From Alphaproteobacteria bacterium (GTDB taxonomy: Bacteria; Pseudomonadota; Alphaproteobacteria; UBA9219; RGZA01), in NCBI GenBank assembly GCA_021732145.1, contig JAKFVN010000017.1, positions 1 through 64,000 on the forward strand: 64,000 bases of DNA, read 5' to 3'. Shown here piece by piece: positions 14,244 to 59,844 of the stretch. Position 1 is the stretch's first letter. Each line of letters starts with the position of its first letter. Under the pieces are notes generated by a model. That model was not told where the DNA came from. It did no database searches and saw only the letters and a program-made list of their open reading frames with translations. Made by a program: the position numbers and the translations under genes.

Positions 14244-14245
14244 TC

Positions 14246-33826: not shown

Positions 33827-33832
33827 CGCGCA

Positions 33833-34336: not shown

Positions 34337-34368
34337 TCTCTTACCTGAGTTCTTTTTAAGGCGCTTTG

Positions 34369-35412: not shown

Positions 35413-35436
35413 GTTGAACACGAACTGGAGTAACAC

Positions 35437-35724: not shown

Positions 35725-35791
35725 GCAGGTTTTCCTCTTATAGTTTTTCTGCCCGTTTTTACCGTCGCAAATATGACACAGGCTTTGGGCT

Positions 35792-35853: not shown

Positions 35854-35939
35854 AGTTGGTTAGAGTTTTGCCTCAAAGGCTAGCCAACGGGTTTGCTGCG
35901 AATTGACCACGCATATGCGGAACTTAGACCGGAACACAC

Positions 35940-39090: not shown

Positions 39091-39325
39091 AAAATCAACC
39101 AAAAGTTAATACATTCGAAACTATTTAGGCTCCGCTTTGCCTGTAAGGGGAGAAAATTGTTGCACAAGCATCACACTTGCTATTCTCTCGCTTTCGCGAC
39201 GCGGCTAAACATTTGGTGAATAAGAATCTTCTTCCCTAAGATGCGTAAGCCAATTGAGTACCCTCACGATAGTCGTGCGTCGATTTTTTGGTGCAAGAGG
39301 GGATTTTTTAAAGGCAGGAATGAAC

Positions 39326-42238: not shown

Positions 42239-43509
42239 TGGTAGCTGGCGTTGTCAAAGTTGGCAGGCAAACATATGCTGTAGGCCTGTTATGGCAGCCA
42301 TCGCCTAGCGGTCGTGTTGCGCAGGCAGCCCGCGAAGCCGCGGCGCAGCCCGGGCAACAATCCGATTTCTATTGCGTACGCGCTGCAAGCAAATCCGTAG
42401 CTATTCCCCAATATGGTCTGGCGCAAAGCGCCCAAGGCCATAAGTCAGGCATGCCGACATTGGCCGCATCCCTTGCAAACGCGCAGCCAGGCTCATGGGC
42501 AGGCGCGTTCCGTTTGCGCGAAGGCACATGGCTTGTTGTCGTTCGCGACGATCTGATTGCGCCGGATGGCGATATTATCTTTGATAATGATGAAGCGGCG
42601 CGTGACCGCCTGCTGCAAGAAGTAAGCCTTGGCGGTGTCCAGCGTATTTATGCCCCAGATGGCTGGGCTGTTCCTGGTTCTGACCCGACTCCGCTGCCTT
42701 TATTGCTTCAAGACAAGGCCGAATGCCGTTTGCAGCCTGTGCGCCTACCAATGCGCCTTATTATATATGGGGCTGCGGCTGGTGCTGTGGTGCTACTGGT
42801 TATTTTTCTTGCCTTGCAATGGCAGGCCGAGCAGGAGCGCATTGAGGCGGAGCAAACCGCCGCCCAGATTAAGGCACAGCAGGAGGCCATCAAGAATGGC
42901 CCTGTCAGCAAAATGATGAACAAGTGGGAATGGCCGCCCGCCGACCAATGCTATGAGCGCAGATGGGAAAAGGCCGCAAGAAGTACCGAGGTTGTAGAAG
43001 CCTGCCGCGCCATGATCTCCAAGGTTCAGGCTGCCCAGCTGGGCTGGAAGCGCAGCACGACCATCTGCACCGATAACAAGCTCAATATCACCTGGCAACG
43101 CGATAAGAATTTTAGTGGTCTTGTCCCGACCGATTCATCTGTTAAAGAAGATTTAAGTATGGCGACGCAAAATAGCACCGGCCCTGCGCTGACCCCGCGC
43201 GGAGCCGAGCCGTTAATGCGTGAAACTGATCTTTCGGCTTTAATGGTTCACGACAGATGGCCGGTAAGTGTTATTCGTCTTCTGGATGATCCCCCGATTG
43301 TTCAGCCGCCGCCAGACATGAAGGATCCGCCACCGCCACCGCCACCACCATGGCGCAAGCGCGGTGTGAAATACACGGGTAAGGTACCGCCATGGGAAAT
43401 GTGGCGTTACTTTCAGGATGTAAATGGTTTGATGGTTGATAAGATTACGTGGGATGGTGGAACTACGTGGACGTTAGAAATAACTATTTATGAAAAGAGA
43501 GGTGGGTGA
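42238..43509 (+). CDS. pilO: PilO-like IVb pilus accessory protein
   Basis: 423 residues. Cytoplasmic N-terminal domain beginning VVKVGRQTYAVGLLWQP, which is typical of R64 PilO. One membrane helix follows at about 179-198 (IIYGAAAGAVVLLVIFLAL), then a short coiled coil and a periplasmic domain with a Pro tract (DPPPPPPPPWRK). PilO connects cytoplasmic ATPase and platform parts to the periplasmic pilus machine. Confidence 0.82.
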   Translation: MVAGVVKVGRQTYAVGLLWQPSPSGRVAQAAREAAAQPGQQSDFYCVRAASKSVAIPQYGLAQSAQGHKSGMPTLAASLANAQPGSWAGAFRLREGTWLVVVRDDLIAPDGDIIFDNDEAARDRLLQEVSLGGVQRIYAPDGWAVPGSDPTPLPLLLQDKAECRLQPVRLPMRLIIYGAAAGAVVLLVIFLALQWQAEQERIEAEQTAAQIKAQQEAIKNGPVSKMMNKWEWPPADQCYERRWEKAARSTEVVEACRAMISKVQAAQLGWKRSTTICTDNKLNITWQRDKNFSGLVPTDSSVKEDLSMATQNSTGPALTPRGAEPLMRETDLSALMVHDRWPVSVIRLLDDPPIVQPPPDMKDPPPPPPPPWRKRGVKYTGKVPPWEMWRYFQDVNGLMVDKITWDGGTTWTLEITIYEKRGG

Positions 43510-43510
43510 C

Positions 43511-44500
43511 ATGAGAACCAACGCCCTGATCACAGTAGCCTTTAGCGCTTTGCTACTTGGCTTATCATTTGCCGGGCAAGCGGTTGCGCAAGATGCGCTC
43601 GCCGATACCTTGCCTGCGCCTGCTTCTTCAACCACGCCGCCTGCTGCCGCGCCAGCTCCAACGCCTGCGCCAGCAAGCAGCACGTTACCAACCGCATCAA
43701 CCACTACATCAACAACATCAACAACTGCGCCTGTATTTACACCTGCCGCTGGCGCAACCACCACCAGCACCATTACAACGGCAACCACTGGCACAGCGCC
43801 AGCAACCACTTCGTCAGCGATTGTTCCCGTGCCATCACCAAGCACCACGCTTCCAATCAGCGGTGCTGCGGCAGCGGCAGCGGGCGGTGGGTTGAATATG
43901 TCGCCGCAAACGCCGTCGGCCGTAACTGATGCGATGGCGCGGTTGCAAAAAGTGGATCAAATCAATCTTGATGATATGGTTCGTGCACAAGATGCGATTA
44001 ACCGTCTTGACCTGTTATTGGAAATTGAAAAGCGTCAAACCGAATTGAAGAAAGTGCGTGATGAACGCAATAAGCCATCGGTCGCTTCAGCGACCGCTGC
44101 TGCGGCAGGATTGTTAGGATCCGCCATTCCTGCGGCGGCACTCAATCTTCCGAAAATTCCTGTAGCAGATACGCCTGCGGTTACCCCAAGCTTTACGCCA
44201 AAAGCATCTGCATCATCATCTTCTTCGTCATCATCTTCTTCCAAGAGCAGCAGTGGTCCTTCAGAAAAGTTGTCGATTAGACGTATCTCTGGAACGGATG
44301 GTCGTTACTTTGCCGTTATAAATTTGGAAGATAATTCGACCCAAACCGTACATGCGGGCGATAAATTACCAGATGGAAGCTTGGTAAAATCAATTACTTT
44401 GACCAGTGTGTCCCTAATTAAGGACAAAAAAAGTAAAAATTTAACCATTCCGACGGATTCTTATATCGTTAGGGAATCTACCGGTGCTTCATTACAATAA
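43511..44500 (+). CDS. pilP: PilP-like IVb pilus periplasmic protein
   Basis: 329 residues from ATG 43511 (GAGGTG upstream); an ATG at 43490 inside pilO is also in frame. Signal peptide (AFSALLLGLSFAGQAVAQ), a long Thr/Pro/Ala linker, a helical part (INLDDMVRAQDAINRLDLLL), a poly-Ser linker, and a C-terminal PilP domain (LSIRRISGTDGRYFAVINL, TVHAGDKLPDGSLVKSITL). PilP-type domains bind the secretin from the inner-membrane side. Stop codon directly abuts the pilQ start. Confidence 0.82.
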   Translation: MRTNALITVAFSALLLGLSFAGQAVAQDALADTLPAPASSTTPPAAAPAPTPAPASSTLPTASTTTSTTSTTAPVFTPAAGATTTSTITTATTGTAPATTSSAIVPVPSPSTTLPISGAAAAAAGGGLNMSPQTPSAVTDAMARLQKVDQINLDDMVRAQDAINRLDLLLEIEKRQTELKKVRDERNKPSVASATAAAAGLLGSAIPAAALNLPKIPVADTPAVTPSFTPKASASSSSSSSSSSKSSSGPSEKLSIRRISGTDGRYFAVINLEDNSTQTVHAGDKLPDGSLVKSITLTSVSLIKDKKSKNLTIPTDSYIVRESTGASLQ

Positions 44501-46540
44501 ATGTCTGACTCAGTATTTTCGCGGTTCAAGGATCTTGTTGGGGGTAGTAGTCCGAAAGACGGCCCAGCAGATGCCTCACATGCTGGTGGGCAACAGCCGT
44601 TGCCTGAACAAGTAGCTCGTCCGCGTAAACCCCCCGAACCAAATGGTTTAGCCCCTCCCAATCCTGCACAGCGTGAACGTCCTCCTGTCCAATCGCGCGG
44701 CGCGACCTTAAAAGATAATGCGGAAGAAAAACCCCCCATAGGGCAGCAAGCAACCGTAAAAAAGCCGGGTGAAGAAAAACGGCCGCGCGGGCCAATGGCC
44801 GCTGCTGTGCAATCGCCCACCGGCGCAGATAAAAAAGCATCATCAGAAGAAGGCGAAACACATAGCGAAGAAGATGCACCAATTGTATTCGAAGGCAATT
44901 TGCTGACCGCGGTTGGCAGCAATATTAAAATTCCGCAGGAATCCAGAAATCTTTGCGCACTGTTTGATACAGGCCTATGGCTTGTTTCAGCAAGCCACAG
45001 GAATTCGCCGCTTGTCACATCGGTTGCCGCCACCGCGCGGCGCATGGGCTTTCAGGTTGGCCCGGCGCGGCTTGTAACCCCGGACGTTATTAAGGCTGCC
45101 TATAATTATTTTGAACGTCAGGTTTCAACCCTGCGCCTTGATGAAAACTCCGTTCGCCGTCAAATCGTGCGTACGCTTGCGGCAGGCGCAGAAAGTGGCG
45201 CAAACGATATTCATATTGAAGCCAGCGGCGGCCGCACCAAGGTTGAATTCCGTATTGATGGCACGCTGCGCCTTTGGGAAACATGGACGCAAAAAGAAGG
45301 CGAGCAATATCTTTCTGCCGTTTATTCGCACTCATCCGGACAATCAGGCGCAACGGCAAACTGGCTTGAGCCCCAAGCGGCCATGCTAACACATGGTTCA
45401 GGCCCTGATACCATTGCATTGCCGGATGGCGTGTTGGCAGTTCGCTGTCAATGGGTTCCGCTTGCTGATGGTGGCCGTTATCTGAATATGCGTTTGCAAT
45501 ATGATAGCTCGCGCATCTTTGGGGAGAATTTTATTCAATCCGATGTGGATAGCCTTGGTTTCAATCAGGAACAAACGGATATCATCCGTTACTTGCGCCG
45601 CGTTCCGGGCGGCATGCGTATTTTCTCAGGGCCCGTGAACCAAGGTAAAACGACAACGCTTCGCGTGGTGCTCAATCGCCATATGGCCGAAACCAACATG
45701 GAGCAGAAATGCTATATGATTGAAGATCCGCCCGAAGGCGGTGTTATCGGGGCCAGCCAAATCGGCGTGTCGGCAACGGTAAAAGACGAACAACGCGATA
45801 GAAGTTTTGCAGAAATCATGCGGTGCATTTTGCGTCTCGATCCAAACATCGTGATGCTTGGCGAAACCCGCGACTTGCAGACCGCCAAGTTCATTTTCCG
45901 TCTGGCGCTAACGGGTCGCCAGGTTTACACAACCATCCACGTTTACGCTGCGATTGCCATTCCACAGCGTCTGCGCGACTTAGGCGCAGAGCCTTATCTG
46001 GTCTATGATCACCATTTGCTGGTGGGCTTAATCTGTCAGCGCTTGCTGCGCGGCCTTTGCCCGCATTGTCGTATTCCAGCCAGCACCAAGATGAATGACA
46101 CAGCGCATGAAACTGTTTTGCGCCGTGTACGCGCTGGCCTTGCAATCATGAAAGCATCGCGCCATCTGATACGCGAAGATGCTGACCCGTTTGATTACAT
46201 TGAAGAACCCGATATGCGCGGCGTTTACTTCGTCAACCCGCAAGGATGCCGTCATTGCTTTCAAGGCCGCCAGGGCCGCAGCATTGTTGCGGAAACTGTT
46301 GCAACAGATGCGCGTTTGATGGCGCTGCTGTCGGAAAACAAGCTTGAGGAAGCAGCTAAATACTGGCTATCACCATTTGGCCTTAACGGTATTTCAATGC
46401 TGTGGCATGGCCTTGAAAAAATCCGTGATGGCGTTGTATCGCCTTTTGACTCGGAACAGGAAGTCGGGCCTTGCGCAACGGATCGCGAAATACGAATGGT
46501 AGAAGAACGTTTAGGAAAAAAAGATAAATGGATGACCTAA
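44501..46540 (+). CDS. pilQ: PilQ pilus-assembly ATPase (GspE/PilB family)
   Basis: 679 residues. Disordered Pro/Lys-rich N-terminus (1-125), ATPase domain with Walker A GPVNQGKTT (about 377-385), Walker B NIVMLGETRD (about 449) and the paired Cys motifs GLCPHC and GCRHC, a zinc site of GspE-type ATPases. The P-loop still has G-x4-GKT but replaces the usual TGS with VNQ. It powers pilus extension. R64 names this protein PilQ. Overlaps pilR by 13 bp. Confidence 0.88.
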   Translation: MSDSVFSRFKDLVGGSSPKDGPADASHAGGQQPLPEQVARPRKPPEPNGLAPPNPAQRERPPVQSRGATLKDNAEEKPPIGQQATVKKPGEEKRPRGPMAAAVQSPTGADKKASSEEGETHSEEDAPIVFEGNLLTAVGSNIKIPQESRNLCALFDTGLWLVSASHRNSPLVTSVAATARRMGFQVGPARLVTPDVIKAAYNYFERQVSTLRLDENSVRRQIVRTLAAGAESGANDIHIEASGGRTKVEFRIDGTLRLWETWTQKEGEQYLSAVYSHSSGQSGATANWLEPQAAMLTHGSGPDTIALPDGVLAVRCQWVPLADGGRYLNMRLQYDSSRIFGENFIQSDVDSLGFNQEQTDIIRYLRRVPGGMRIFSGPVNQGKTTTLRVVLNRHMAETNMEQKCYMIEDPPEGGVIGASQIGVSATVKDEQRDRSFAEIMRCILRLDPNIVMLGETRDLQTAKFIFRLALTGRQVYTTIHVYAAIAIPQRLRDLGAEPYLVYDHHLLVGLICQRLLRGLCPHCRIPASTKMNDTAHETVLRRVRAGLAIMKASRHLIREDADPFDYIEEPDMRGVYFVNPQGCRHCFQGRQGRSIVAETVATDARLMALLSENKLEEAAKYWLSPFGLNGISMLWHGLEKIRDGVVSPFDSEQEVGPCATDREIRMVEERLGKKDKWMT

Positions 46541-47613
46541 GACGCAAATTTAATATGTGGATGCTGCGCAATAATCGTAAATTGCGTTTCCGCATTTATC
46601 GCAAGCTGCAAGGCATGCTTGCAATGAATGAAGCGCTGTCACGCGCGCTTGAACGCCTTTGGTACAACTCATCCGATATGGGCCGCCACCCGGAGCGCCC
46701 ATCTGCGATGGCATTGCAAGAATGGCTAAAGCGCGATAGGGCAGGGGAAACACTTTCCGAAGCGATGAATGACTGGGTGCCATCGGCCGAACTGTACATG
46801 ATCCGCGCAGGTGAAGAATCCGGACAGGTATCAAATGCCATGCTCGCGATTATGCATGTGGGCGATAGCGCGCAGCGAATGCGCAGCGCGATTATTCAAG
46901 CGGTTTCATATCCTTTATTTATGATGGCGTTGCTGGCAGGTGTGTTCTGGCTGTTCGGCGTGAACCTGATTGAAAACATGCGCAAGGCCGCGCCTAAAAA
47001 AGTGCTTGATGCGATGAGCGGTATTGCGGATGTGTCTGATTTTGTGATGCAAAACGGCATTCTTTTAGTCATCATAATTGTCGGCACCATATTTTTTATC
47101 GCCGGCAGCATGCCGTATTGGAAAGGCAGCCTGCGGGTCAAGTTTGATAAATATCCGCCTTGGGCATGGTATCGCGTCTGGCAGGGCAGCTCGTTCCTCT
47201 TGGGCCTCTCCGCGCTTCTTAAAGCGCAAGTGCCATTGAAGCGCGCAGTAGAAATTCTGGAGGAGGAAGCAACGCCGTGGCTGCGTGAGCGCTTGCACTC
47301 CGCGCGTGAAGAAATTTTGCGTGGCCGCAATATGGGTGAAGCATTGCGTGCCGGCGGTTTTGAATTTCCTGATCCGCAAGTGGCGCTTGACTTGGAGATT
47401 TTATCCGAGCGTTCTGACGTGGGTTCGATTATCGACGTTGTGACCAAGGAGTGGATTGAAGAGCAAATTGAAGTGCTCACTATTCAGGCAGGATTCGTCC
47501 GTACTGGTGGCTTGATCTGTGTCGGTGGCGTTATTGCTTGGGCCATGATGTCTATTTTGCGAATCACTACCATCCTCAGCGATATGCAAAATTCAGGCAG
47601 TACAGCCTTTTAA
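46528..47613 (+). CDS. pilR: PilR inner-membrane platform protein (GspF/PilC family)
   Basis: 361 residues with two GspF-type halves, each followed by a membrane segment (SYPLFMMALLAGVFWLFGV; TGGLICVGGVIAWAMMSIL). EELYMIRAGEESGQVSNAM-like text near residue 90 (YMIRAGEESGQ) and LEILSERSDVGSI near 290 are family marks. Anchors the pilus ATPase at the inner membrane. The following 183 bp hold the likely pilin promoter. Confidence 0.88.
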   Translation: MDDLRRKFNMWMLRNNRKLRFRIYRKLQGMLAMNEALSRALERLWYNSSDMGRHPERPSAMALQEWLKRDRAGETLSEAMNDWVPSAELYMIRAGEESGQVSNAMLAIMHVGDSAQRMRSAIIQAVSYPLFMMALLAGVFWLFGVNLIENMRKAAPKKVLDAMSGIADVSDFVMQNGILLVIIIVGTIFFIAGSMPYWKGSLRVKFDKYPPWAWYRVWQGSSFLLGLSALLKAQVPLKRAVEILEEEATPWLRERLHSAREEILRGRNMGEALRAGGFEFPDPQVALDLEILSERSDVGSIIDVVTKEWIEEQIEVLTIQAGFVRTGGLICVGGVIAWAMMSILRITTILSDMQNSGSTAF

Positions 47614-47796
47614 AAAGCGGTTTTTTACCCGGTTCCACCCCCCGGTATGGCTACCAAGCTATTAACCCTATTTAGTTTTTAATAGAGACAATCAGCGCCT
47701 AAATTGGTAACACTAAATTAATAAGCGTTGGGTAGGCTCGCTTATGGCTTATAAAACCCCCACCTGCCTATCATTATGTCCCTTGCGGAGGAATTA

Positions 47797-48372
47797 ATGC
47801 AAACGACTGTCACCACACATGAAACCCGTGCTTCTCAGCAAGCTGGTTTTAACTTAATCGAAGCCGCGATTGTTCTTGGGATTGTTGGTCTTATCGTGGG
47901 TGGTATTTGGGCTGCTGCTGCATCGGCTTATGAAAACATGCGCCAGCAAACCGCATCAAAGAATTTGCTTTCATTTGCACAAAATGTCCGCGGCTTTTAT
48001 TCAAATAGCGGTGCAACCGCTATTGATACCAGCGTAACCAACGCAATTACCCAAGGCCTTGTTCCTTCCGATATGCGTTCAGGTACAACCGCTGCTGTCA
48101 GTCCTTGGGCAACCCCCGTTACCATTAACACTGGCGCCATCAATGGCATCAATGTATTCGGCGTATTATTTTCTGGCCTTAACCGCCAGACCTGCATCAA
48201 CCTCATCTTGCGTAATACCAACGCATCAAATGGTTCGGGCCTGATTGCGGTGGGTGGTACTGCAACCATTCCTACAACAGAATCCACATTCCCGCTGACA
48301 TCCGCAGCGGCAACAACGCTTTGCGCTACCACTACGGGTAATGCGCCAAGCTTCTGGTTCAGCATCAACTAA
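47797..48372 (+). CDS. type IVb prepilin, copy 1 (PilS-like)
   Basis: 191 residues from ATG 47797, five bases after GGAGG; ATG 47776 is rejected as it overlaps that site. A 16-residue leader ends at QQAG, with cleavage before FNLIEAAIVLGIVGLIVG, the pilin transmembrane spine. The Glu five residues into the mature protein is present (FNLIE). The globular part has two Cys near the end (RQTCINL, TTLCATT), probably the usual disulfide loop. Near-duplicate of the next gene. Likely the major thin-pilus subunit. Confidence 0.88.
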   Translation: MQTTVTTHETRASQQAGFNLIEAAIVLGIVGLIVGGIWAAAASAYENMRQQTASKNLLSFAQNVRGFYSNSGATAIDTSVTNAITQGLVPSDMRSGTTAAVSPWATPVTINTGAINGINVFGVLFSGLNRQTCINLILRNTNASNGSGLIAVGGTATIPTTESTFPLTSAAATTLCATTTGNAPSFWFSIN

Positions 48373-48554
48373 TGATTGCCAATACATGGAAAACAACATG
48401 CAAGCATCTACTGCTGAATACACCCGCACATCTCCTGCCAGGGAAGCCGGCTTTAACTTAATCGAAGCTGCGATTGTTCTTGGGATTGTTGGTCTTATCG
48501 TGGGTGGCATTTGGGCTGCTGCTGCATCTGCTTATGAAAACATGCGCCAGCAAA
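47848..48554 (+). repeat. near-identical 103-bp block shared by the tandem prepilin genes
   Basis: Bases 47848-47950 and 48452-48554 differ at only 3 of 103 positions, all third-codon changes that keep the protein. They encode the pilin spine. Outside the block the genes are clearly more divergent. This suggests recent duplication with diversification of the globular part, or gene conversion of the spine. Confidence 0.9.
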
Positions 48555-48976
48555 GTGCATCCAAAAACATGCTGGCATTCGCGCAGAATGTTCGCAATTT
48601 TTATTCCAACGGCGGCGCGACATCGATTGACACCAGCATGACCAATGCAATCACGCAGGGCCTAGTTCCGCCTGACATGCGTGTTGGAACGACGGCTGCC
48701 ATAAGTTCATGGGCAACGCCGGTTACCATCGACACGGGCGCTATTAACAGCATCAACGTGTTTGGCATCATCTTCACTGGCCTCAACCGTCAAACCTGCA
48801 TTAACCTTATTGTACGTAACACCAACGCATCACAAGGCTCAGGCCTTATCTCGGTGGGCAGTAGCTCAACGATTCCAACAACGGAAGGTACGTTCCCAAT
48901 AACGACTGCTGCTGCAACGACATTGTGCGCCACAGCAACGGGTAATAACCCCAGCTTCTGGTTCAGCATCAACTAG
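48398..48976 (+). CDS. type IVb prepilin, copy 2 (PilS-like)
   Basis: 192 residues from ATG 48398, chosen by analogy with copy 1 (both begin MQ); ATG 48386 is an alternative. Leader ends at REAG before FNLIEAAIVLGIVG. Same fold and two C-terminal Cys as copy 1. Differences are spread over the globular part (for example RNFYSNGG against RGFYSNSG). Could be an alternative major pilin or a minor pilin. Confidence 0.86.
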   Translation: MQASTAEYTRTSPAREAGFNLIEAAIVLGIVGLIVGGIWAAAASAYENMRQQSASKNMLAFAQNVRNFYSNGGATSIDTSMTNAITQGLVPPDMRVGTTAAISSWATPVTIDTGAINSINVFGIIFTGLNRQTCINLIVRNTNASQGSGLISVGSSSTIPTTEGTFPITTAAATTLCATATGNNPSFWFSIN

Positions 48977-49095: not shown

Positions 49096-49626
49096 ATGTT
49101 TATGTTCACCTTTTCAGTGATTACAATTTCGATTGTCGGTCTGTTTCTCCAGATTGTTACGACGCTTACATCCTATTTACTAAGCGTGCAAATGGGGCTC
49201 GGCCAACAACTGCTTGCATGGCATTCCATGGCATTTGCCTATGCCTGCACAACGGCCGGGCTTGCCGAGCCCGATGGCGGCACGGTGACGATTAACGAGG
49301 TTGCCCGCGCCAGCCAGCTTGCGGGCAGTTATCAATGGAACACTGTATTTTTTACGGGAACCTATGCAGGTGCCACGCGGCGCATGATTGTGACGTATGT
49401 TACCCCGGCAGAAAAACCACTTGGCTTTTCATCCTATGATGTCGCGCGCCAGCTGACCAAGGTCACCATCAAGCAAAATTTCACTTATGGCCGCAGTACG
49501 GCCGGGCAAACGACCACATTCACAACCTATGATGGCAATGTGCCCTCTGCGATTATCATTGGCGGATTACCAGCGGCTGTGGTGGCCAATTCTGTCGTGC
49601 TTGTCAGTGATGCAACCTGTAACTAA
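49096..49626 (+). CDS. PilM-like pilus accessory protein (tentative)
   Basis: 176 residues. N-terminal hydrophobic anchor (VITISIVGLFLQIVTTLTSY) without a Gly-Phe prepilin site, then GQQLLAWHSMAFAYACTT and a mixed domain with two Cys. Size, single N-terminal anchor and place in the operon suit R64 PilM, a small inner-membrane pilus protein; sequence support is weak. ATG 49102 is an alternative start. It separates the two prepilin genes from the pilin-S74 gene. Confidence 0.6.
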   Translation: MFMFTFSVITISIVGLFLQIVTTLTSYLLSVQMGLGQQLLAWHSMAFAYACTTAGLAEPDGGTVTINEVARASQLAGSYQWNTVFFTGTYAGATRRMIVTYVTPAEKPLGFSSYDVARQLTKVTIKQNFTYGRSTAGQTTTFTTYDGNVPSAIIIGGLPAAVVANSVVLVSDATCN

Positions 49627-49658: not shown

Positions 49659-51038
49659 ATGAAACCATTCATTCAAACACAACGCGCGATGCGTAATTTC
49701 AATCGTGGTTTTACGCTGATTGAATTGGTCATTGTCCTAGGTATTACCGGTTTGATCTTTTCAGGGCTTTGGGGCCTGCTTACCAGTGGCAGCACGGCGC
49801 TGCAAGCGCAATCGGCGGCGCAGCAATACCGTCAGGTCATTGAAGCGATGCGCAAATATGTGGCAAGTGGCGTGTATGCTGCTGAAGCGGATGGCACTTT
49901 TGTTGCCGTGCCGCCAACAATCGCAGATTTGAAAACCGCCAATTTGCTGCCTGCCAATTTCAATACAACTGATGCATATGGCAACGCAATTACTACCGCT
50001 GTAAACACGATTTCTGCTTCACGCATGCAATGGCGCTTTGTGGTGTATTCAGGTACCAGAGCGGCTACGCCAACCGTACTGCTCCCTGATAAGGTGGGGG
50101 CACAAATTTCATCGCTGATTGGTAGTGAAGGCGGCTTTGTGTACGCCAACGCAACCGATGGTTGCGCTGCATCTGCGGCTGCAGCAATTATCACTGCCTG
50201 CGGCGCGTTTAACTCGTTTGCCATGCCTCTGGCTGATTTCAACATTCTGGCAGGTAGAGGCCGTATTGTTGCACAGGCCTATACTGTAGATAGCAATACC
50301 GGTACGGCGCCTTGGCTCTACCGCAAGGCATCCACCAGTGCCGAACAGCGTACCATGCAGGAAAACATGTTGTTCAACGCGGGTCTTTCGCTCTCCATGC
50401 AAACCAGTAACATCCTGATGGGCAATGGCAACATCATCATGGGTGGCACAGGCAGCATATCGATGGGTGCAGCAAACGGCGCAACATCCGGCGCGACGGG
50501 TGCTCTCTACATGGGCGGCGCTGGCATACGAAACGTAACCCAAATCAATCAAGGCCCTGCTTCGGGCCAACCCAATTTGTCGATTTTCGCCAACAATCTT
50601 GCCATGACATCCAATACCAGCATCGACGTGGTCAGTGGATCCACGTTCAACGTCAGCACGACTTCGGGTTCAGCAGCGACACTTTCAATTGTTGGTCGAG
50701 GCACGGCGGATACGTTTGAAGCCGGTAAGTTCATTTATACGTCTGATGTCAATACAAAGGAAAATCTGCGGCCAATTGAAAATGCATTAAGCCGCGTGTT
50801 GCAGCTTCGCGGCATGAATTATGATTGGAAAGGAACGCACGGTTCCGATATGGGCCTGATAGCGCAGGATGTGCAAAAGGTCTTCCCCGAACTTGTTACC
50901 AGAATTTCGGATAAACGATTGGGTGTGGATTATCCCAAGATGATTGCGCCAATCGTTGAAGCCATCCGCCAGCTTAAGATGGAAAACGATGCCCTGCGCG
51001 CCAAGGTGGACGAGCTGGAGAAGCAGAAGGCCAAGTAG
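49659..51038 (+). CDS. type IV pilin fused to an S74 autoprotease domain (PilV-like tip adhesin)
   Basis: 459 residues. N-terminus: type III prepilin signal with cleavage in NRG-FTLIELVIVLGITGLI. A pilin-like domain follows (to about 230), then a Gly/Met/Asn-rich, probably beta-helical repeat section (NILMGNGNIIMGGTGSISMG). The C-terminal 98 residues are a Peptidase_S74 / intramolecular chaperone domain as in phage tailspikes. They carry the catalytic pair S362 and K367 (SDVNTK), GLIAQDVQKVFPELV and a final coiled coil (AIRQLKMENDALRAKVDELE). S74 domains trimerise, fold the shaft and cut themselves off just before the Ser. Position matches R64 PilV, the thin-pilus tip adhesin. The fusion is seen directly; tip location and cleavage are inference. 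Confidence 0.88.
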   Translation: MKPFIQTQRAMRNFNRGFTLIELVIVLGITGLIFSGLWGLLTSGSTALQAQSAAQQYRQVIEAMRKYVASGVYAAEADGTFVAVPPTIADLKTANLLPANFNTTDAYGNAITTAVNTISASRMQWRFVVYSGTRAATPTVLLPDKVGAQISSLIGSEGGFVYANATDGCAASAAAAIITACGAFNSFAMPLADFNILAGRGRIVAQAYTVDSNTGTAPWLYRKASTSAEQRTMQENMLFNAGLSLSMQTSNILMGNGNIIMGGTGSISMGAANGATSGATGALYMGGAGIRNVTQINQGPASGQPNLSIFANNLAMTSNTSIDVVSGSTFNVSTTSGSAATLSIVGRGTADTFEAGKFIYTSDVNTKENLRPIENALSRVLQLRGMNYDWKGTHGSDMGLIAQDVQKVFPELVTRISDKRLGVDYPKMIAPIVEAIRQLKMENDALRAKVDELEKQKAK

Positions 51039-51067
51039 CCCTTATAATACAAGAGTATTCAGGCATA

Positions 51068-51102
51068 AAAAAACACCGACATTTTGGATGACGGTGTTTT
51101 TT
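51068..51102. terminator. bidirectional intrinsic terminator
   Basis: Arms AAAAAACACCG (51068-51078) and CGGTGTTTTTT (51092-51102), with CAT/ATG pairing inside the loop. It ends the pilus operon on the plus strand and the convergent small gene on the minus strand. Confidence 0.9.
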
Positions 51103-51120
51103 GATTCGCGATAAAAACGC

Positions 51121-51513
51121 TTAGTTTTGCTTCTGGTCAACATAGCGCGTGCAGTTCATTTCGCACTTGTTGCCTTCATCGCCTGATTTCTTCACGCAGC
51201 AAACTGCCCATACGTTAAAGCCGCTTTGGTTTTTAACGGCACGGTCTGACAATACGCAATTTTCGTATTCGCCGCTTAAGCGGAAATTCGACATCACATT
51301 TTCATTGATATTAAAGCGCTGAGCAATGCATGAATTTGCAGCAGCAATGATTTCGGACTGGCTGGTTTTTAATTGGTCGCACTCAAAGCTTGCTTCCGTG
51401 CAATAGGATGTACCCATTTGGATGGCAGATTTTGTAAAGTCGCCATCAGCCTTCGCAGTGTTTGAAAGACCAACAATCAATGCAAGAGCTAGTAATAGAT
51501 GTGTGAAGCGCAT
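51121..51513 (-). CDS. small exported Cys-rich protein of unknown function
   Basis: 130 residues; GGAG six bases before ATG. Signal peptide (MRFTHLLLALALIVGL, cleaved after AKA). Eight Cys in the mature part (SYCTEASFECDQ, NSCIAQ, ENCVLS, AVCCVKK, KCEMNC), probably four disulfides. It is the only minus-strand gene between the two pilus loci. Function unknown; a periplasmic or secreted stress or interaction protein is possible. Confidence 0.72.
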   Translation of the reverse strand: MRFTHLLLALALIVGLSNTAKADGDFTKSAIQMGTSYCTEASFECDQLKTSQSEIIAAANSCIAQRFNINENVMSNFRLSGEYENCVLSDRAVKNQSGFNVWAVCCVKKSGDEGNKCEMNCTRYVDQKQN

Positions 51514-52384: not shown

Positions 52385-52909
52385 ATGTCTGATCCACTCA
52401 TCATCGATAAAAGTTTCCTGCACGATGGTGTTCTCATCATTGCCGCGATTGCCATGTTGGTTGCCGCGCTCAGTGATATCAAGAAGCTGATTATCTCTAA
52501 CCGGATATGCTTGTTTCTTGTCGGATTGTTTCCGCTTTACGTGTTGACGGCGCCGCATGAAATCATGTGGTTGCATCATGTACTCATCGCGGGTGCGGTT
52601 TTGGTCATTGGCTTTGCCATGTTTACGATGAATTTTCTTGGCGGCGGCGATGTGAAAATGCTGGCTGCTGTATCGCTGTGGGCGGGCCCGAAAATGATAG
52701 CAACGTTGTTGCTGTTTACATCTTTTGCCGGCGGATTGCTTGCGCTGGCGTTTGCGGTGGCGGCATTATACCGTTCGCGCATTTTAAAGATTGAAGCGAA
52801 AACCGAGACGAATGAATTAATTCCCTGGCATAAAACCCCAGTTCCTTATGGCGTAGCAATAGCATGCGGCGGAGTGACCGCATTATTTATGATGTCCCAA
52901 GCTGTCTAG
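52385..52909 (+). CDS. cpaA: CpaA/TadV prepilin peptidase (A24 family)
   Basis: 174 residues, polytopic. The two catalytic Asp are in SDIKKLIISNR (about residue 34) and FLGGGDVKMLAA. It cuts Flp prepilin in the inner membrane. It is the only A24 peptidase gene in the window, so it may also serve the IVb prepilins. Typical short TadV size without the N-methylase domain. Confidence 0.92.
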   Translation: MSDPLIIDKSFLHDGVLIIAAIAMLVAALSDIKKLIISNRICLFLVGLFPLYVLTAPHEIMWLHHVLIAGAVLVIGFAMFTMNFLGGGDVKMLAAVSLWAGPKMIATLLLFTSFAGGLLALAFAVAALYRSRILKIEAKTETNELIPWHKTPVPYGVAIACGGVTALFMMSQAV

Positions 52910-52946
52910 CTTTTAGGGCCATCGATTTTTATAAAACGAGGATGCT

Positions 52947-53819
52947 ATGACCAGTCGTCGCACGATATTTCTTGCGCTTGCTATTATTATGGGCCTGGGC
53001 ACCATGATGATGATGCGCAGCGCCATGAGCAACAAAACCGTTGCCGTCAACAATACAAATCAGATTTTGGTAGCTGCTGCCGATGTGCCAGCTGGCCAGT
53101 TCATTCAGCAGCAGCATGTGCGCTGGCAGGCATGGGCACCTGAACACACCACCCAAGCTTTCATCAAAAATGCACCAACCGAAAAACTGGATAGTTATAT
53201 CGGCGCGGTGGTGCGCCAAGGCATTCGTGCAGGCGAACCGATTTTGAAAGGCCAGTTGGTCAAGCCGCAAGAACGCGGATTTTTGGCCGCGGTATTAGAT
53301 GGCGGTAAGCGCGCCATTGCCGTGCCCATTACCAACGTCACGGGCATTGCAGGCTTTGTGTTCCCCGGCGACCGCATCGATTTAATCCTGACACACTCCA
53401 TCCGTTCACAAGATGATGACAAGGTCAATCAACGCCGCGCGAGTATGACGGTGGTAAAAGATGTGCGCGTATTGGCGCTTGACCAAGACGCCAATGATCA
53501 AGGTGAAGCCAAAGCCAAAGTTGCCAAGGTTGCAACATTGGAAGTAACGCCAAAGCAGGCTGAAGTACTGACCCTTGCGCTACAGCTTGGAACGATCTCG
53601 CTCTCCTTGCGCAGCATTGCACAAGACACCACACCAGATGGAAAACCATTGGCGGAGTCCGTTGCGTTTGAAAAAGACCAGCTTACGCTGGACAGTGAAG
53701 TGAGCCAGATTATCCCGCGCCCGGATGATCATTCGCTGGTATCGGGTCAAATCGTGCAGGTCTTGCGCGGTAGCAAAGCCAGAACCGAAGAAAACTTCGA
53801 CGATTCTAAAAAGAATTAG
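52947..53819 (+). CDS. cpaB: CpaB/RcpC pilus assembly protein
   Basis: 290 residues: N-terminal anchor (TIFLALAIIMGLGTMMMM), SAF domain (ILVAAADVPAGQFIQQQHV) and the CpaB domain with AVPITNVTGIAGFVFPGDRI, VDLILTHS-like text and TLEVTPKQAEVLTLALQLG. A periplasmic partner of the CpaC secretin in Tad pili. Operon with cpaA (37 bp) and cpaC (180 bp). Confidence 0.93.
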   Translation: MTSRRTIFLALAIIMGLGTMMMMRSAMSNKTVAVNNTNQILVAAADVPAGQFIQQQHVRWQAWAPEHTTQAFIKNAPTEKLDSYIGAVVRQGIRAGEPILKGQLVKPQERGFLAAVLDGGKRAIAVPITNVTGIAGFVFPGDRIDLILTHSIRSQDDDKVNQRRASMTVVKDVRVLALDQDANDQGEAKAKVAKVATLEVTPKQAEVLTLALQLGTISLSLRSIAQDTTPDGKPLAESVAFEKDQLTLDSEVSQIIPRPDDHSLVSGQIVQVLRGSKARTEENFDDSKKN

Positions 53820-53999
53820 TTTCTGAAAATTTGTTTCACCCATGGAGTGGTTTGTGCGCGGTTTTTTCGCGCGCAAACCATAGTCATGCAGCGTATCATT
53901 TTTATCTCAAGGATACACAAGGTTTGTTTCGTATCAAGAACAATGCTGCCGCAATATTAGTAATGAATTCTAGAGGAACTGGCTTTACATTAGCGACCC

Positions 54000-55382
54000 A
54001 TGAAATCTGCGCTTCTATCCTTATTGCTCGCTTTTGCTTTCATCATGTCGCCCATTACGGGCGTGCGTGCCGAGGAAGAGCCATTGGTCCTCAGCATCGA
54101 CCACAGCGAGAATATTAAGCTGCAGGAACCCGCAGACACCGTATTTATTGCCAGCCCCGATATTGCTGATGTGCAGGTGGTTGCGCCAACCGTTATCACC
54201 ATTTATGGCCGCAAGCAGGGCGAAACCTCGGTTACCGCCAGCAAGAAAGACGGCACCATTTTGCTGAAACGCCGCATTGTGGTGGATCAGGATTTGGGCA
54301 AATTGCAAAACGTGCTGGGCAGCATGCCAAAGATAAAGGCATTGCCGGTTCCGGGCGGTATCGTATTAAAGGGTGAGGCATCGTCATCTAGAGAAGCAGC
54401 GGATGCGCAGCGCATCGCCAGAAAATTCCTTGGCAATGATAAGGAAGAAGTTATCAATCATCTGCGCCTGAAGAATGATGAGCAAATTCAATTACGCGTA
54501 CGCGTTGCTGAGGTTAGCAAAAACATCAGCAAGACATTTGGCATCAACTGGGACACCATCAGCCTTGCTGGTGGCATTACGTTGGGTTTAAAGAGCGGCG
54601 CAAGTTTCCTTTCCGATGCTATTTTGCGTAACAGTAATGTAAGCAATGCCGCAGACCGTTATGCCCGCTCCAATGTCAATAACGGTATTTATGCCGGCTA
54701 TAATGGCAATGGCTATGCGATGAACGGCTTGATTGATGCGCTGGCGCAAGATGGCCTAGTGACGCTGCTTGCCGAGCCAAATCTCACTGCAAAATCAGGT
54801 GAAACCGCAACCTTCCTTGCGGGGGGTGAATTTCCTGTTCCAGTGCCGCAGCAGAATGGTGCAATTACCATTACATTTAAACCATATGGCGTATCGCTGG
54901 CCTTTACCCCAACCGTGCTGGGCAAAGACCGCATCTCCATCCAAGTTCGCCCGGAAGTGAGCGAGCTGACCACATCCGGTTCCATCTCGCTTAATAACAT
55001 TGCAATTCCTGCGCTGCTGACACGCCGCGCGGAAACGACGGTTGAACTTGGCAGTGGTCAAAGCTTTGCCATCGGCGGCCTTATCCGCAGCTATCAGAAT
55101 AACGACGTTTCCAAATATCCATTCCTTGGCGATATACCCGTGCTGGGTGCCTTATTCACGTCCACGCGCTTTCGCAACAGCGAAACCGAGCTTGTGATTA
55201 TCGTAACGCCATATCTTGTGAAACCATCATCTGAACAATTGGCCGCCCCAACCGATGGTTATGCGCCAGCAAACGATGTTGATCGCATCCTGCTTGGCAA
55301 GACCTATTCCAACAGTGTTCCTAACGAGCCAAGAAACATGGGCGAGATTTTGCAAGGCCCAGTTGGCTATAGCGCGGAGTAG
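54000..55382 (+). CDS. cpaC: CpaC/RcpA secretin of the Tad pilus
   Basis: 460 residues. Signal peptide (LLLAFAFIMSPITGVRAE), N0 and BON-type domains (IADVQVVAPTVITIYGRKQG), then the secretin domain: RVRVAEVSKNISKTFGINWD, LTAKSGETATFLAGGEFPVP and VPVLGALFTSTRFRNSETEL. It forms the outer-membrane pore of the Tad pilus. Second secretin gene in the window besides pilN. Confidence 0.95.
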   Translation: MKSALLSLLLAFAFIMSPITGVRAEEEPLVLSIDHSENIKLQEPADTVFIASPDIADVQVVAPTVITIYGRKQGETSVTASKKDGTILLKRRIVVDQDLGKLQNVLGSMPKIKALPVPGGIVLKGEASSSREAADAQRIARKFLGNDKEEVINHLRLKNDEQIQLRVRVAEVSKNISKTFGINWDTISLAGGITLGLKSGASFLSDAILRNSNVSNAADRYARSNVNNGIYAGYNGNGYAMNGLIDALAQDGLVTLLAEPNLTAKSGETATFLAGGEFPVPVPQQNGAITITFKPYGVSLAFTPTVLGKDRISIQVRPEVSELTTSGSISLNNIAIPALLTRRAETTVELGSGQSFAIGGLIRSYQNNDVSKYPFLGDIPVLGALFTSTRFRNSETELVIIVTPYLVKPSSEQLAAPTDGYAPANDVDRILLGKTYSNSVPNEPRNMGEILQGPVGYSAE

Positions 55383-55384
55383 GC

Positions 55385-55771
55385 ATGATGAAATCATATC
55401 TCTCATCTGTTTTACTGGCTTTATGCCTCATGCTTGGCGGCTGCTTTGATGCAACCCAGGCGCGTCCCAACCACGCGGTTTCCGTGATTGCCAACCCCGA
55501 AAAAGGCGGCAAGCTGGTTGCGGTTTCAAAGCCATGCCCGGCGTGGAACAAGAATACGCTGGATGGTTTGGATAATCAGTTCGCGTCGAACTTTGGCTGT
55601 GCGGATATGTATAACCTTGGCAAGATGATTGCCGATCCAAAAGACCTGCTGCATGGCCAGCCGCTGGGCGAGGCCGATGCGGCATCCGGCGTTCTTGGCA
55701 TTGAGCGTTATCGCTCTGACAAGAAAAAAGAATTAATCAATCCTAAAGAAATCAACGCCACCGGTAAGTAA
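55385..55771 (+). CDS. cpaD: CpaD-like lipoprotein of the Tad pilus
   Basis: 128 residues with a lipoprotein signal (LLALCLMLGGC, Cys20). Conserved CpaD features: PCPAWN, FGCADMYNLGKMIADPKDLL and IERYRSDKK at the end. It is shorter than the typical CpaD (about 200 residues), with the N-terminal half reduced. Two bases after cpaC. Probably assists the secretin. Confidence 0.85.
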   Translation: MMKSYLSSVLLALCLMLGGCFDATQARPNHAVSVIANPEKGGKLVAVSKPCPAWNKNTLDGLDNQFASNFGCADMYNLGKMIADPKDLLHGQPLGEADAASGVLGIERYRSDKKKELINPKEINATGK

Positions 55772-55989
55772 TGCGGTGTGTTTTGACGGATTATGGCGGC
55801 CTAGCTTCCGATAGTGATAACGCACGCGGAATGATAACGCAGGGCTAAGTGTTTATTAGCAAAACTGTGGTGTTTTAAAGGGATAGGACTCGTTTTCCCT
55901 TTCCAGAGCAGATCGCAATTAGGAGTTCAATACCAAAAGTTTAGTTGCGTTTGCCTGCTTGGTACAAATTTGGTGGTTTGTTTTTTATC
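55772..55989. other. 218-bp gap between cpaD and cpaE
   Basis: Contains AAAGGGA (55877-55883) and TCCCTTT (55896-55902), a 7-bp inverted repeat, with a GANTC (55887) inside its loop. Possibly an internal promoter or leader for cpaE. No gene seen. Confidence 0.35.
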
Positions 55990-57210
55990 ATGCATGAAGA
56001 ATTTATGGGCTTCGTAAGTGACGAAGCCTCCTATCGCATCGCGCGCAGCGTTGCAGAAGCACGGGGATGGCCTGCCGCTGTTGTACAGCAGGGTGGTCTC
56101 GACATGCTTGCTGACATGCTGGAAAACCATGCGCCGCCAAAAATCCTGCTGCTGGATTTAGATGCCGAGCCTGATGTGCTGCAGGCAGCCAACCGTGCAA
56201 TCAATCTGTGCGGCCCGGATTCGCAGATTATCTTTTTAGCCAAGCATAACGACATCACGCTGTACCGCCAATTCATCCAATTGGGCGCTGCCGATTATCT
56301 GGTAAAACCGCTTAGCGAAGATGTGCTGGTTCAGGCCATCATCAATACCTCCAAACCAAAGCGCAGCGCAGAGCCGGTTGATAAGGAATTGCATAGCAGC
56401 AAAATTGTTGCGGTGATTGGAACGCGTGGCGGTGTTGGCGTGACAACCGTGGCTGTAAACCTGTCATGGATTTTATCGCAGCAACTCAATCAGCAAGTTG
56501 GCCTTGTTGATTTGGATATGCAATTTGGCAGCACGGCGCTTGCACTTGACCGTGAACCCGGCCGCGGCATGCGTTCCGCACTTGAAAACCCAGAACGTTT
56601 GGATGGCTTGCTGATTGCCAGCTCTATGGTGCAGCATAATGACAAATTCTCGATTTTATGCGCGGAAGATACGCTTGATACGCCTTTCCATTTTGATGGC
56701 GATGCAACGCTGGGCCTTTTAAAGCCTATTCGCGGCGATTTTGATATGCTGCTGGTGGATATGCCGCGCCACCATATCTCCGCGCAAAAGACATTGCTTA
56801 ACGAAGCGCATGCGGTGCTGATTGTTGCTGATTTAACCTTGGCATCGCTGCGTGATGCACGCCGCATTCGTGCCTATCTAAAAAACCTTCGCCCTGATTT
56901 GATGCCTATCCTCATCGTCAACCATGTGGGTGACAGCCCGTATTCAACCATCGACCAGCCAACCTTTGAAAAAAATCTGGAAGCTAAGATTGATCTGGTA
57001 TTGCCGGAAGATATTAAAACCGCAAAACAGGCCGCGAATTTAGGAAAGCCATTTGTTTCGGTTGCTGCCGAAGCGCCGATTACCAAGGCGCTGATTATGC
57101 TGGCGCGCAATTTATCGGGCCAGAAAGAAACCAGAAAGCAAGACACAAAAGGCAAATCATTATTCCAGGGGTTGCTTGGCAACAAACCAACCAAACCCGC
57201 AACCAAATAG
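55990..57210 (+). CDS. cpaE: CpaE/TadZ localisation ATPase-like protein
   Basis: 406 residues from ATG 55990; ATG 56005 is an alternative. N-terminal receiver-like domain (ILLLDLDAEPDVLQAANRA, LGAADYLVKPLSEDVLV), then a MinD/ParA-like domain. Its P-loop is GTRGGVGVTTVAVN (about 143-156), where the usual GK is GV. DMLLVDMPRH follows. CpaE proteins place the Tad machine at the cell pole. The altered P-loop is common in this family, so weak or no ATP hydrolysis is likely. Confidence 0.92.
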   Translation: MHEEFMGFVSDEASYRIARSVAEARGWPAAVVQQGGLDMLADMLENHAPPKILLLDLDAEPDVLQAANRAINLCGPDSQIIFLAKHNDITLYRQFIQLGAADYLVKPLSEDVLVQAIINTSKPKRSAEPVDKELHSSKIVAVIGTRGGVGVTTVAVNLSWILSQQLNQQVGLVDLDMQFGSTALALDREPGRGMRSALENPERLDGLLIASSMVQHNDKFSILCAEDTLDTPFHFDGDATLGLLKPIRGDFDMLLVDMPRHHISAQKTLLNEAHAVLIVADLTLASLRDARRIRAYLKNLRPDLMPILIVNHVGDSPYSTIDQPTFEKNLEAKIDLVLPEDIKTAKQAANLGKPFVSVAAEAPITKALIMLARNLSGQKETRKQDTKGKSLFQGLLGNKPTKPATK

Positions 57211-57221
57211 GCTAGGCTGAT

Positions 57222-58844
57222 ATGGTTCAACCACCGCACACCATGCCAAGTTTACGGGACAAGTATATGCCCGAACTGGTTGCGCGCATCAGCCATACCG
57301 ATGCACAGAAAATGAAGCGCGGTGATTTGGCGCTGGCGGTGCGTTCATTCGTTGGCGAATGGCTGGCACGTGATGGCGAAAATGTTGATTTGCTGTTGCA
57401 GCGCGATTTAGTCACAGCGCTTATCAATACGATTTTATCAAGGCAAGGTGCCAGCATCATGCCGCATGAAGCTTTGCATGCGCCTGTTTCAGCGCCGATA
57501 GCTACATCGGTGCCTGCCAACGTGCCAACGGAAACGATGGCATATGAAAGGCCAGCGGTTTTAGAAACGCCGCGTTCTACATCGCTGCGTGCAACCGTGC
57601 AGGTCATTAAGGACAGCATTCAGCCGTTGTTGATGGATAGAATAGACGCGTCCGCAGCTGCAAAGATGACGCGCGATGATTTGAGCCGTGATTTAACCGG
57701 CGTTGTCAGCGAATTATTGACTGAACAGAAAACGCCATTATCCGGCAGCGAACGCCAAGAACTGGTTACCAGTTTGCTTGATGACATGTTGGGTCTTGGC
57801 CCGCTTGAACCATTGCTGGCTGATGAAACCATCAGCGAAGTCATGGTGAATGGCGCAAAACAGATCTGGATTGAGCAAAAAGGCCGTCTGACTTTAACCG
57901 ATGTGCATTTCCGCGATAATGCGCATGTGCTGTCGGTGGCACAGCGTATTGTGAATGCGATTGGCCGCCGTGTAGATGAATCAAGCCCGTTATGCGATGC
58001 GCGTTTGGCGGATGGCAGCCGTGTAAACATCATCATCCCGCCGCTGGCAATTGATGGCCCGGCGATTACCATTCGTAAGTTCTCCAAGAAAAAGATTACG
58101 CTGGATGTAATGGAAAAATTTGGCTCCATCAGCCCGCAAATGAAGAAGGTGCTGGAAATCGCTGGCCGCTGCCGCCTGAACATTCTTATTTCCGGTGGCA
58201 CGGGTTCCGGTAAAACCACGCTGCTGAATGCTATCTCAAAAATGATTGATAACAGCGAACGTATTGTCACGATTGAAGATGCGGCAGAACTGCAACTGCA
58301 ACAGCCGCACGTCGTGCGCCTTGAAACGCGTCCTGCGAATTTGGAAGGGCACGGCGAAATCAGCATGCGTGATTTGCTAAAAAACTCGCTGCGCATGCGC
58401 CCGGATCGCATCATCGTGGGTGAAACCCGCGGCGGTGAAGCGATTGATATGTTGCAAGCGATGAATACGGGCCATGACGGTTCGTTTTCCACGGTTCACG
58501 CCAACCGCCCGCGCGAAGCGCTGATGCGCCTTGAAAACATGGTGGGCCTGGCGGGTGTAAACTTGGCACCGCGCGCCATTCGTATGCAAATTGCCTCAGC
58601 GCTCGATATGATTGTGCAGGTCAGCCGCATGCGCGATGGTTCGCGCCGCGTGACCTATATTAGCGAAGTATTGGGCATGGAAGGCGATGTCGTCACCATG
58701 CAGGATTTATTCACCTGCGAGACCAAAGGTGAAGCGCCGGATGGCAAATTGAACGTTGAATTCATCAATCACGGCCTGCGACCGCACTTCCTACCCAAAG
58801 CGGCTTACTTCAATCTCGATAAGCAATTATTGGAGATTTTATGA
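57222..58844 (+). CDS. cpaF: CpaF/TadA pilus ATPase
   Basis: 540 residues. Walker A SGGTGSGKTTLLN at about 324-336, RMRPDRIIVGETRGGEAIDM (Walker B region) and DGSFSTVHANRPREALMRLE. It has about 110 extra N-terminal residues with a second copy of a helical pair: KYMPELVARISHTDAQKM and SIQPLLMDRIDASAAAKM are similar, at about 14 and 131. This suggests duplication of the N-terminal helical domain. Energises Tad pilus extension. Overlaps tadB by ATGA. Confidence 0.95.
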   Translation: MVQPPHTMPSLRDKYMPELVARISHTDAQKMKRGDLALAVRSFVGEWLARDGENVDLLLQRDLVTALINTILSRQGASIMPHEALHAPVSAPIATSVPANVPTETMAYERPAVLETPRSTSLRATVQVIKDSIQPLLMDRIDASAAAKMTRDDLSRDLTGVVSELLTEQKTPLSGSERQELVTSLLDDMLGLGPLEPLLADETISEVMVNGAKQIWIEQKGRLTLTDVHFRDNAHVLSVAQRIVNAIGRRVDESSPLCDARLADGSRVNIIIPPLAIDGPAITIRKFSKKKITLDVMEKFGSISPQMKKVLEIAGRCRLNILISGGTGSGKTTLLNAISKMIDNSERIVTIEDAAELQLQQPHVVRLETRPANLEGHGEISMRDLLKNSLRMRPDRIIVGETRGGEAIDMLQAMNTGHDGSFSTVHANRPREALMRLENMVGLAGVNLAPRAIRMQIASALDMIVQVSRMRDGSRRVTYISEVLGMEGDVVTMQDLFTCETKGEAPDGKLNVEFINHGLRPHFLPKAAYFNLDKQLLEIL

Positions 58845-59827
58845 ATCCGGATATGCTGATGATGCTGGGCGGCGGGGTTATCACCATCATTGTGCTGATA
58901 GTCGCATTGATGCCGGGCGGTGATAGCCAAACATTGGAAAAACGTATCAAGCGTGTTTCCGGCATGGAAGAAAAGCCAGAAAAAAAACAAGCAGCAGGGC
59001 CAAAAGTTGAACTAAAACGCAGCGTTAAGGACAGCGGCATTCCGTTTTTTGATAATTTTATCAAAACCGCGCTGCCAAATCCTGAAAAATTGCGTAACCG
59101 CCTTGCGCGCACGGGCATGCGCATGACCATCAGCGAGTATTTGCTGGTGACCGGATTGATGATTGGCATTTTCTTCATGCTGTTTCATGTCATTTTTGGC
59201 CAAAAGCTTTTGCCATCCACCTTGCTGTCGCTGATGCTGGGTATCTGGCTGCCGCATGTGTTTATTGGCATGAAGGGCAAGAAACGCTGCAAGGAATTCA
59301 TCAAATTTTTCCCTGAATCGATTGATGCGATGGTACGCGGCATCCGTTCCGGTCTTCCCATCAGCGAATCCATCAATGTGGTGGGCGACGAAATGCCAGA
59401 TCCTATTGGTTATGAATTCCGCACGATTAAGGATGCCGTGCGCATGGGTCGCAGCCTTGAAGATGCAATGTGGGATGTGGCAAAGCGGGTGGATGTTCCG
59501 GAATACCGTTATCTGATTATTGCGCTCGCCATTCAAAAGGAAACCGGCGGTAATTTAGGCGAAACGCTGGCCAATGTGAGCGAGGTATTGCGCAAGCGCC
59601 GCCAGATTAAGCTAAAAATCAAGGCTATGTCATCGGAAGCAAAAGCCAGTGCGATGATTTTAGGCGCATTGCCATTTATTGTATCCATTGTGCTTGGCCT
59701 GGTTGCAACCGAGTACATCATGCTTTTGTTCAATGACCCCCGCGGCAATATCCTGCTTGGCATCGCCTTTGGCATGCTTGGCTTTGGTATCTGGATTATG
59801 GCGCAGATGATTAATTTCGAAATCTGA
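58841..59827 (+). CDS. tadB: TadB inner-membrane platform protein
   Basis: 328 residues, GspF-related. N-terminal helix, TGMRMTISEYLLVTGLMIG, the cytoplasmic part with FFPESIDAMVRGIRSGLPIS and IQKETGGNLGETLANVSEVL, and C-terminal helices. Forms the inner-membrane base of the Tad pilus together with TadC. ATGA overlap with cpaF. Confidence 0.94.
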   Translation: MNPDMLMMLGGGVITIIVLIVALMPGGDSQTLEKRIKRVSGMEEKPEKKQAAGPKVELKRSVKDSGIPFFDNFIKTALPNPEKLRNRLARTGMRMTISEYLLVTGLMIGIFFMLFHVIFGQKLLPSTLLSLMLGIWLPHVFIGMKGKKRCKEFIKFFPESIDAMVRGIRSGLPISESINVVGDEMPDPIGYEFRTIKDAVRMGRSLEDAMWDVAKRVDVPEYRYLIIALAIQKETGGNLGETLANVSEVLRKRRQIKLKIKAMSSEAKASAMILGALPFIVSIVLGLVATEYIMLLFNDPRGNILLGIAFGMLGFGIWIMAQMINFEI

Positions 59828-59844
59828 TATCAGGATGACGTGCC

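Follow-up and report, generated by a model that had tools for sequence, protein, structure and literature searches.

A PilV-type minor pilin carrying an S74 chaperone domain is conserved across an alphaproteobacterial order

In a stretch of 64,000 nucleotides from an alphaproteobacterial genome (hereafter the window), we identified a gene whose product joins a PilV-type minor pilin to a C-terminal S74 domain. Taking all lines of evidence together, we put the probability at roughly 0.6 that this protein serves as the PilV-type adhesin at the tip of an R64-type type IVb pilus, an adhesin whose S74 domain would fold a trimer in the periplasm and would then cut itself off between T361 and S362.

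Both domains of the modular N_methyl-S74 pilin architecture were found in this one protein, as had been read from the letters alone in a preliminary description of the gene, and each scored above its Pfam cut-off. N_methyl (PF07963) matched residues 13-37 (E 2.2e-6, 27.4 bits against a cut-off of 21.2), while Peptidase_S74 (PF13884) was matched at all 58 positions of its model by residues 362-414, with 60.3 bits (cut-off 22). The N terminus carries a type IV prepilin class III signal, with a short leader, a glycine before a phenylalanine, a glutamate at +5 and a hydrophobic helix, and FTLIELVIVLGI corresponds to residues 18-29. In the S74 domain, S362, D363 and K367 fit the SDxxxK spacing, D363 directly following the serine, which confirms the normally spaced Ser-Lys pair described earlier. 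The GLIAQDV motif occupies residues 399-405. A cut at T361/S362 is predicted to release residues 362-459, that is, a fragment of 98 residues, in good agreement with the size of about 98 residues first proposed. The features of the region are listed in Table 1.

Table 1. Features in the window around the PilV-S74 gene
Feature	Position	Strand	Basis
Dot/Icm (type IVB) secretion cluster	11285..38564	+	Pfam, NCBIfam
TcpQ/PilL-like protein	39320..40540	+	PF10671 TcpQ, E 4e-12
PilN secretin	40544..42238	+	TIGR02520, E 2e-79, slightly below cut-off; Secretin PF00263
PilO	42238..43509	+	PF06864 PAP_PilO, E 1.5e-19
PilP	43490..44500	+	TIGR03021, above cut-off
PilQ-type assembly ATPase	44501..46540	+	T2SSE PF00437
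PilR-type platform protein	46528..47613	+	T2SSF PF00482
Major pilin (PilS/bundlin type), copy 1	47776..48372	+	PF05307 Bundlin, above cut-off
Major pilin (PilS/bundlin type), copy 2	48341..48976	+	PF05307 Bundlin, slightly below cut-off; near copy of copy 1
Small protein with N-terminal hydrophobic segment, directly upstream of PilV-S74	49096..49626	+	Profile search
PilV-type minor pilin with C-terminal S74 domain, 459 aa	49659..51038	+	Pfam; PilV homology of residues 11-224; 26 aligned family members
Prepilin motif G/FTLIELVIVLGI and start of hydrophobic helix, residues 17-37	49707..49769	+	PF07963; G17, L20, E22 invariant (n=26)
Gly/Ser/Asn-rich shaft or receptor-facing region, residues 233-361, most variable part	50355..50741	+	Identity, length spread
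S74 intramolecular chaperone/protease and C-terminal coil, residues 362-459	50742..51035	+	PF13884, invariant site, model pLDDT
Bidirectional terminator-like hairpin between convergent genes	51065..51105	.	Inverted repeat
Cys-rich small protein with signal-peptide-like start, directly downstream, convergent	51121..51513	-	Profile search; signal peptide judged by eye
Tad/Cpa-type genes after the pilus operon	52385..60816	+	Pfam: prepilin peptidase, CpaB, secretin; ORFs beyond 55.9 kb (CpaE-like, Tad-like) named by eye

By sequence comparison, the N-terminal half is homologous, and not merely analogous, to the R64-type tip adhesin PilV. A tblastn search against plasmids aligned residues 11-224 with annotated PilV proteins of Xanthomonas and other plasmids (31% identity, E 9e-7), and among the matches listed, all those to residues 11-242 carried an annotation as the shufflon-system tip adhesin PilV (from Xanthomonas, Stenotrophomonas and Cupriavidus). 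In the same search, the S74 half retrieved tail-fibre proteins. The PilV part of another family member (L018) independently matched PilV of Acetobacter, Burkholderia, Acidovorax and Cupriavidus. Furthermore, Shufflon_N (PF04917) was found in 4 of 26 family members (best E 4.3e-12); the window protein did not reach this model, and two members re-scanned singly stayed below the Pfam cut-off. The alignment with Xanthomonas PilV showed common stretches, namely GG(F/Y)V, a GA.. block, GRI(V/A)A and an NTM/NRM block. The likeness to R64 PilV noted at the outset is therefore upheld and strengthened to homology by the tblastn match of residues 11-224, by Shufflon_N in four members and by the operon order, and only the word "analogous" has to be given up.

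Proteins of this type from R64, TP114 and the Xanthomonas plasmid share with the window protein the prepilin N terminus and a homologous core of about 230 residues. However, their C terminus is a shufflon-swapped binding segment, whereas that of the window protein is an S74 domain with no shufflon-like repeats nearby: a shufflon-like repeat set was not found at 49.0-52.5 kb, and no recombinase was recognised among the ORFs there. Since neither sfx-type repeats nor an Rci-type recombinase were recognised, we classify the gene as a PilV homolog and not as a shufflon system. As a separate observation, a non-pilin S74 fibre of the same genome (L003 406-1872) has a YGGGW.M.D.TWIR.YNNK module in common with the C-terminal part of the Xanthomonas plasmid PilV (L214 9001-10524), with 34% over 133 columns. 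This suggests that PilV tips and S74 fibres exchange modules.

The genomic position points in the same direction as the homology. PilV-S74 closes an operon (39320-51038) that reads TcpQ/PilL-like, PilN, PilO, PilP, PilQ, PilR, PilS, PilS, a gene of no assigned family and PilV, and the order TcpQ-PilN-PilO-PilP-PilQ-PilR-PilS-...-PilV is that of the Xanthomonas plasmid and of R64. The operon lies directly behind the Dot/Icm type IVB cluster, which comprises two DotI genes, DotH, a DotG/TrbI-like gene, DotM, a coupling ATPase, DotD, a DotC/TraI-like gene and a DotB-like gene. A pilus with Dot/Icm-like transfer genes at its side is the layout of R64, and R64-type PilV genes likewise stand at the end of a TcpQ-N-O-P-Q-R-S operon that such secretion genes adjoin. 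PilV homology and R64 operon position together make a pilus-tip adhesin, as initially suggested, likely. The Dot/Icm cluster, the R64-ordered type IVb pilus and the Tad/Cpa genes follow one another within about 50 kb (11285-60816).

Unlike plasmid PilV, PilV-S74 is spread through a whole order. A PilV-like plus S74 sequence was found in 30 of its 33 genomes, as one uninterrupted frame in 28; of the other two, G016 has copies truncated at contig ends and G010 has the halves in separate frames. The sequence was missing from G002, which is complete, and from G022 and G031, which are 80% and 62% complete. A single-protein scan of the genome contigs gave no match. G010 also lacks a PilQ ortholog, and its split PilV-S74 gene (L171 7504-10259) represents either decay or an assembly error.

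We then aligned 26 full-length members with the same two-domain architecture, both domains being detected in every one of them (hmmscan at E up to 1). Invariant in all 26 were G17, L20 and E22 in the N-terminal part and S362, D363, K367, G399, A402, Q403, P410, Y425, P431 and N443 in the C-terminal part. Mean pairwise identity fell from 0.59 in the prepilin helix to 0.39 in the core and 0.27 in the shaft, and was higher again in the S74 domain (0.46) and the coil (0.41); shaft length ranged from 76 to 167. That S362, D363 and K367 are invariant in proteins with a shaft identity of 0.27 speaks for a functional protease. A shaft that changes fast, set between an anchor and a catalytically intact chaperone that are both conserved, is, we infer, what would be expected of an adhesin with a maintained folding tool.

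A single-chain AlphaFold model reached a pLDDT of 88-98 over about residues 361-459, the S74 part, and was poor outside it (mean pLDDT 58.6), where the alignment is thin for the PilV core and shaft. Foldseek gave weak matches only, the best being the endosialidase chaperone 3gw6. Profile matches in the PDB were 6f45, 8jov, 7dc3 and 3gud, with no CofB or TcpB chain among them. The S74 proteins of phages (endosialidase, neck appendage protein, long tail fibres) share with the window protein the S74 domain with SDxxxK and the GLIAQDV region, but they are virion proteins made in the host cytoplasm without a membrane anchor, whereas the window protein is a pilin.

A closer functional parallel comes from Bdellovibrio, where the fibre Bd3182 undergoes S74 self-cleavage at S782 that is blocked by S782A (Caulton et al. 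2024, PMC10769870). Bd3182, a MAT fibre, is a trimeric bacterial surface fibre that likewise ends in an SDxxxK S74 domain, and its self-cleavage is proven. It differs at the other end, since MAT fibres have a signal peptide and an N-terminal domain of their own of about 130 residues in place of the prepilin signal and PilV core. No account of a pilin whose S74 domain cuts itself turned up in the literature searched. As for pilus tips, TcpB and CofB are homotrimeric minor pilins at the tips of type IVb pili (PMC9565799, PMC8179133). Like the window protein they are large type IVb minor pilins, and they cap the pilus as trimers, whereas for the window protein the trimer is what we infer; they have no S74 domain and different C-terminal domains, and no sequence match to the window protein was found. 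R64 PilV itself binds lipopolysaccharide (PMC9045228).

In the mechanism that we propose, three exported and processed PilV-S74 prepilins would come together at the inner membrane, and their S74 domains would drive the variable shaft into an intertwined trimer in the periplasm. Once folded, each chain would cut itself between T361 and S362 and shed the 98-residue chaperone. Only correctly folded trimers would cap the pilus, and the cut trimer would present a glycan-binding shaft to the cells around it. The S74 domain would in this way replace the shufflon-swapped end of plasmid PilV.

Alternatively, the S74 domain could fold the PilV trimer and stay on as a distal, target-contacting cap, the site being kept for stability or for inefficient cleavage. 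C-terminally tagged Bdellovibrio MAT fibres are indeed visible on the cell surface (PMC10769870), and S74 is the most conserved part of the protein outside the pilin helix. We nevertheless judge this unlikely, given that S, D and K are invariant in 26 of 26 members and that the bacterial relative with an SDxxxK motif that was tested cuts itself (PMC10769870).

A second alternative, which differs from self-trimmed PilV-S74 as a tip adhesin only in the purpose of the pilus, holds that this is the mating pilus of an R64-like plasmid or an integrated element, with PilV-S74 picking the recipients. Its appeal lies in the Dot/Icm-type cluster that adjoins the R64-ordered pilus, as in IncI-type plasmids, and in the location on plasmids of the closest PilV matches listed by tblastn against plasmids. 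However, a search of the genome for relaxases of the MOBP type found none. Moreover, 29 of the 33 genomes of the order have DotH and 28 have a PilQ ortholog, a distribution more in keeping with chromosomal inheritance than with a mobile trait, and a conjugative role is in our view improbable. The complete G002, of the same genus, lacks DotH, PilQ and PilV-S74 alike. Because PilV-S74 occurs without a PilQ ortholog in G008, G024 and G030 (drafts) and in G010, and PilQ without PilV-S74 in two incomplete genomes, the co-occurrence of the two is only suggestive. Outside the family of the window genome, the PilV-S74 gene often lies apart from the pil operon, as it does in family f2.

The combination of domains is not new as such. 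In the sections of Raynaud et al. 2021 on modular pilins (PMC8179133), N_methyl plus S74 (IPR012902-IPR030392) in one chain is listed among the 15 most frequent modular pilin architectures, and Caulton et al. 2024 (PMC10769870) have demonstrated that an S74 domain cuts itself off a surface fibre of a bacterium. At the level of architecture, the initial remark that no described example was known therefore does not stand. As presented in those sections, the N_methyl-S74 pilins are a database architecture of which no member was studied, with no description of PilV homology, operon, catalytic conservation or mechanism (PMC8179133). Our literature search on PilV, pilin or shufflon with S74 or endosialidase retrieved nothing relevant beyond PMC8179133. 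The features that appear to be new are the PilV-S74 subtype, its conservation throughout the order and its conserved cassette, with a small, putative membrane protein upstream and a convergent, putatively exported Cys-rich protein downstream.

The same sections describe N_methyl-S74 proteins as pilins with a predicted peptidase (PMC8179133), from which one might take the window protein for a minor pilin whose peptidase acts on other proteins. The domain here is, however, a standard S74, and we give this reading very little credence. To our knowledge, every S74 domain studied to date cleaves its own chain alone, and only once, on trimerisation, which also counts against it. Finally, the idea that misassembly or read-through fused a pilin gene with a phage tail-fibre gene, envisaged at the outset as the observation that would overturn the fusion, is refuted by orthologs in 30 of 33 genomes, 28 of them with the same architecture in one frame and the nearest aligning across the pilin/S74 junction, even though pilin and S74 domains usually occur in separate proteins and the genome holds three other S74 proteins.

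Outside the order, the best candidates from each of about 740 genomes were scored, and in no case did a single match combine PilV with S74; the three PilV-like frames examined from there (L123, L127, L128) lacked an S74 motif. Further prepilin plus S74 frames (L045, L049, L111, L084, L114) were observed in Bdellovibrionota, Oligoflexia, Bacteriovoracaceae, Bdellovibrionales and others, and probably represent separate fusions. A tree of S74 domains alone resolved only a few forks; the grouping of the 28 PilV-S74 domains into one clade was not rejected (p-AU 0.82) and scored better than the free quick tree. Judged from these domain sequences, one fusion event behind PilV-S74 is possible.

PilV-S74 is accompanied by two small genes. 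The upstream protein was found beside it by profile search in 25 of 29 loci, or 26 with a wider stretch for one genome, and matched no known family in Pfam or NCBIfam; an identity as PilM was not supported, the profile comparison not being significant. Of the 29 loci, 22 have the Cys-rich protein next to PilV-S74, and contig ends truncate some of the others; the protein matched no known family in searches that included NCBIfam. Between PilV-S74 and the convergent Cys-rich gene, the window has a strong hairpin common to both, with a fold of -18.6 kcal/mol and a z of -3.85 for the 79 nt around it. Both companions stay with PilV-S74 even where the gene lies apart from the pil operon. The Cys-rich protein is a candidate tip partner, and by analogy it may, as a guess, be a tip cargo, as TcpF is for TcpB. 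CofJ and TcpF are the proteins with which a Cys-rich exported tip cargo or cap is to be compared. Tentatively, and with doubt, one may go further and picture PilV trimers that are proofread by S74 and self-trimmed in the periplasm before pilus export, in a fixed cassette with a Cys-rich tip cargo or cap and beside a chromosomal Dot/Icm system that would serve cell contact and not conjugation.

PilV-S74 brings phage spikes and pilus tips, two separate kinds of adhesin, together in one order-wide family with an intact active site. A mutant in a single residue could test whether a self-removing chaperone assembles pilus tips in the style of a phage spike. R64 PilV selects recipient cells by their lipopolysaccharide, and a PilV built with S74 beside a Dot/Icm machine would suggest how a mostly uncultured alphaproteobacterial lineage recognises other cells. 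S74 matches were also seen inside giant open frames, one of 25189 residues (G132:C34:140646-140969, L129) and one of 9801 residues (G010:C1:636064-636663).
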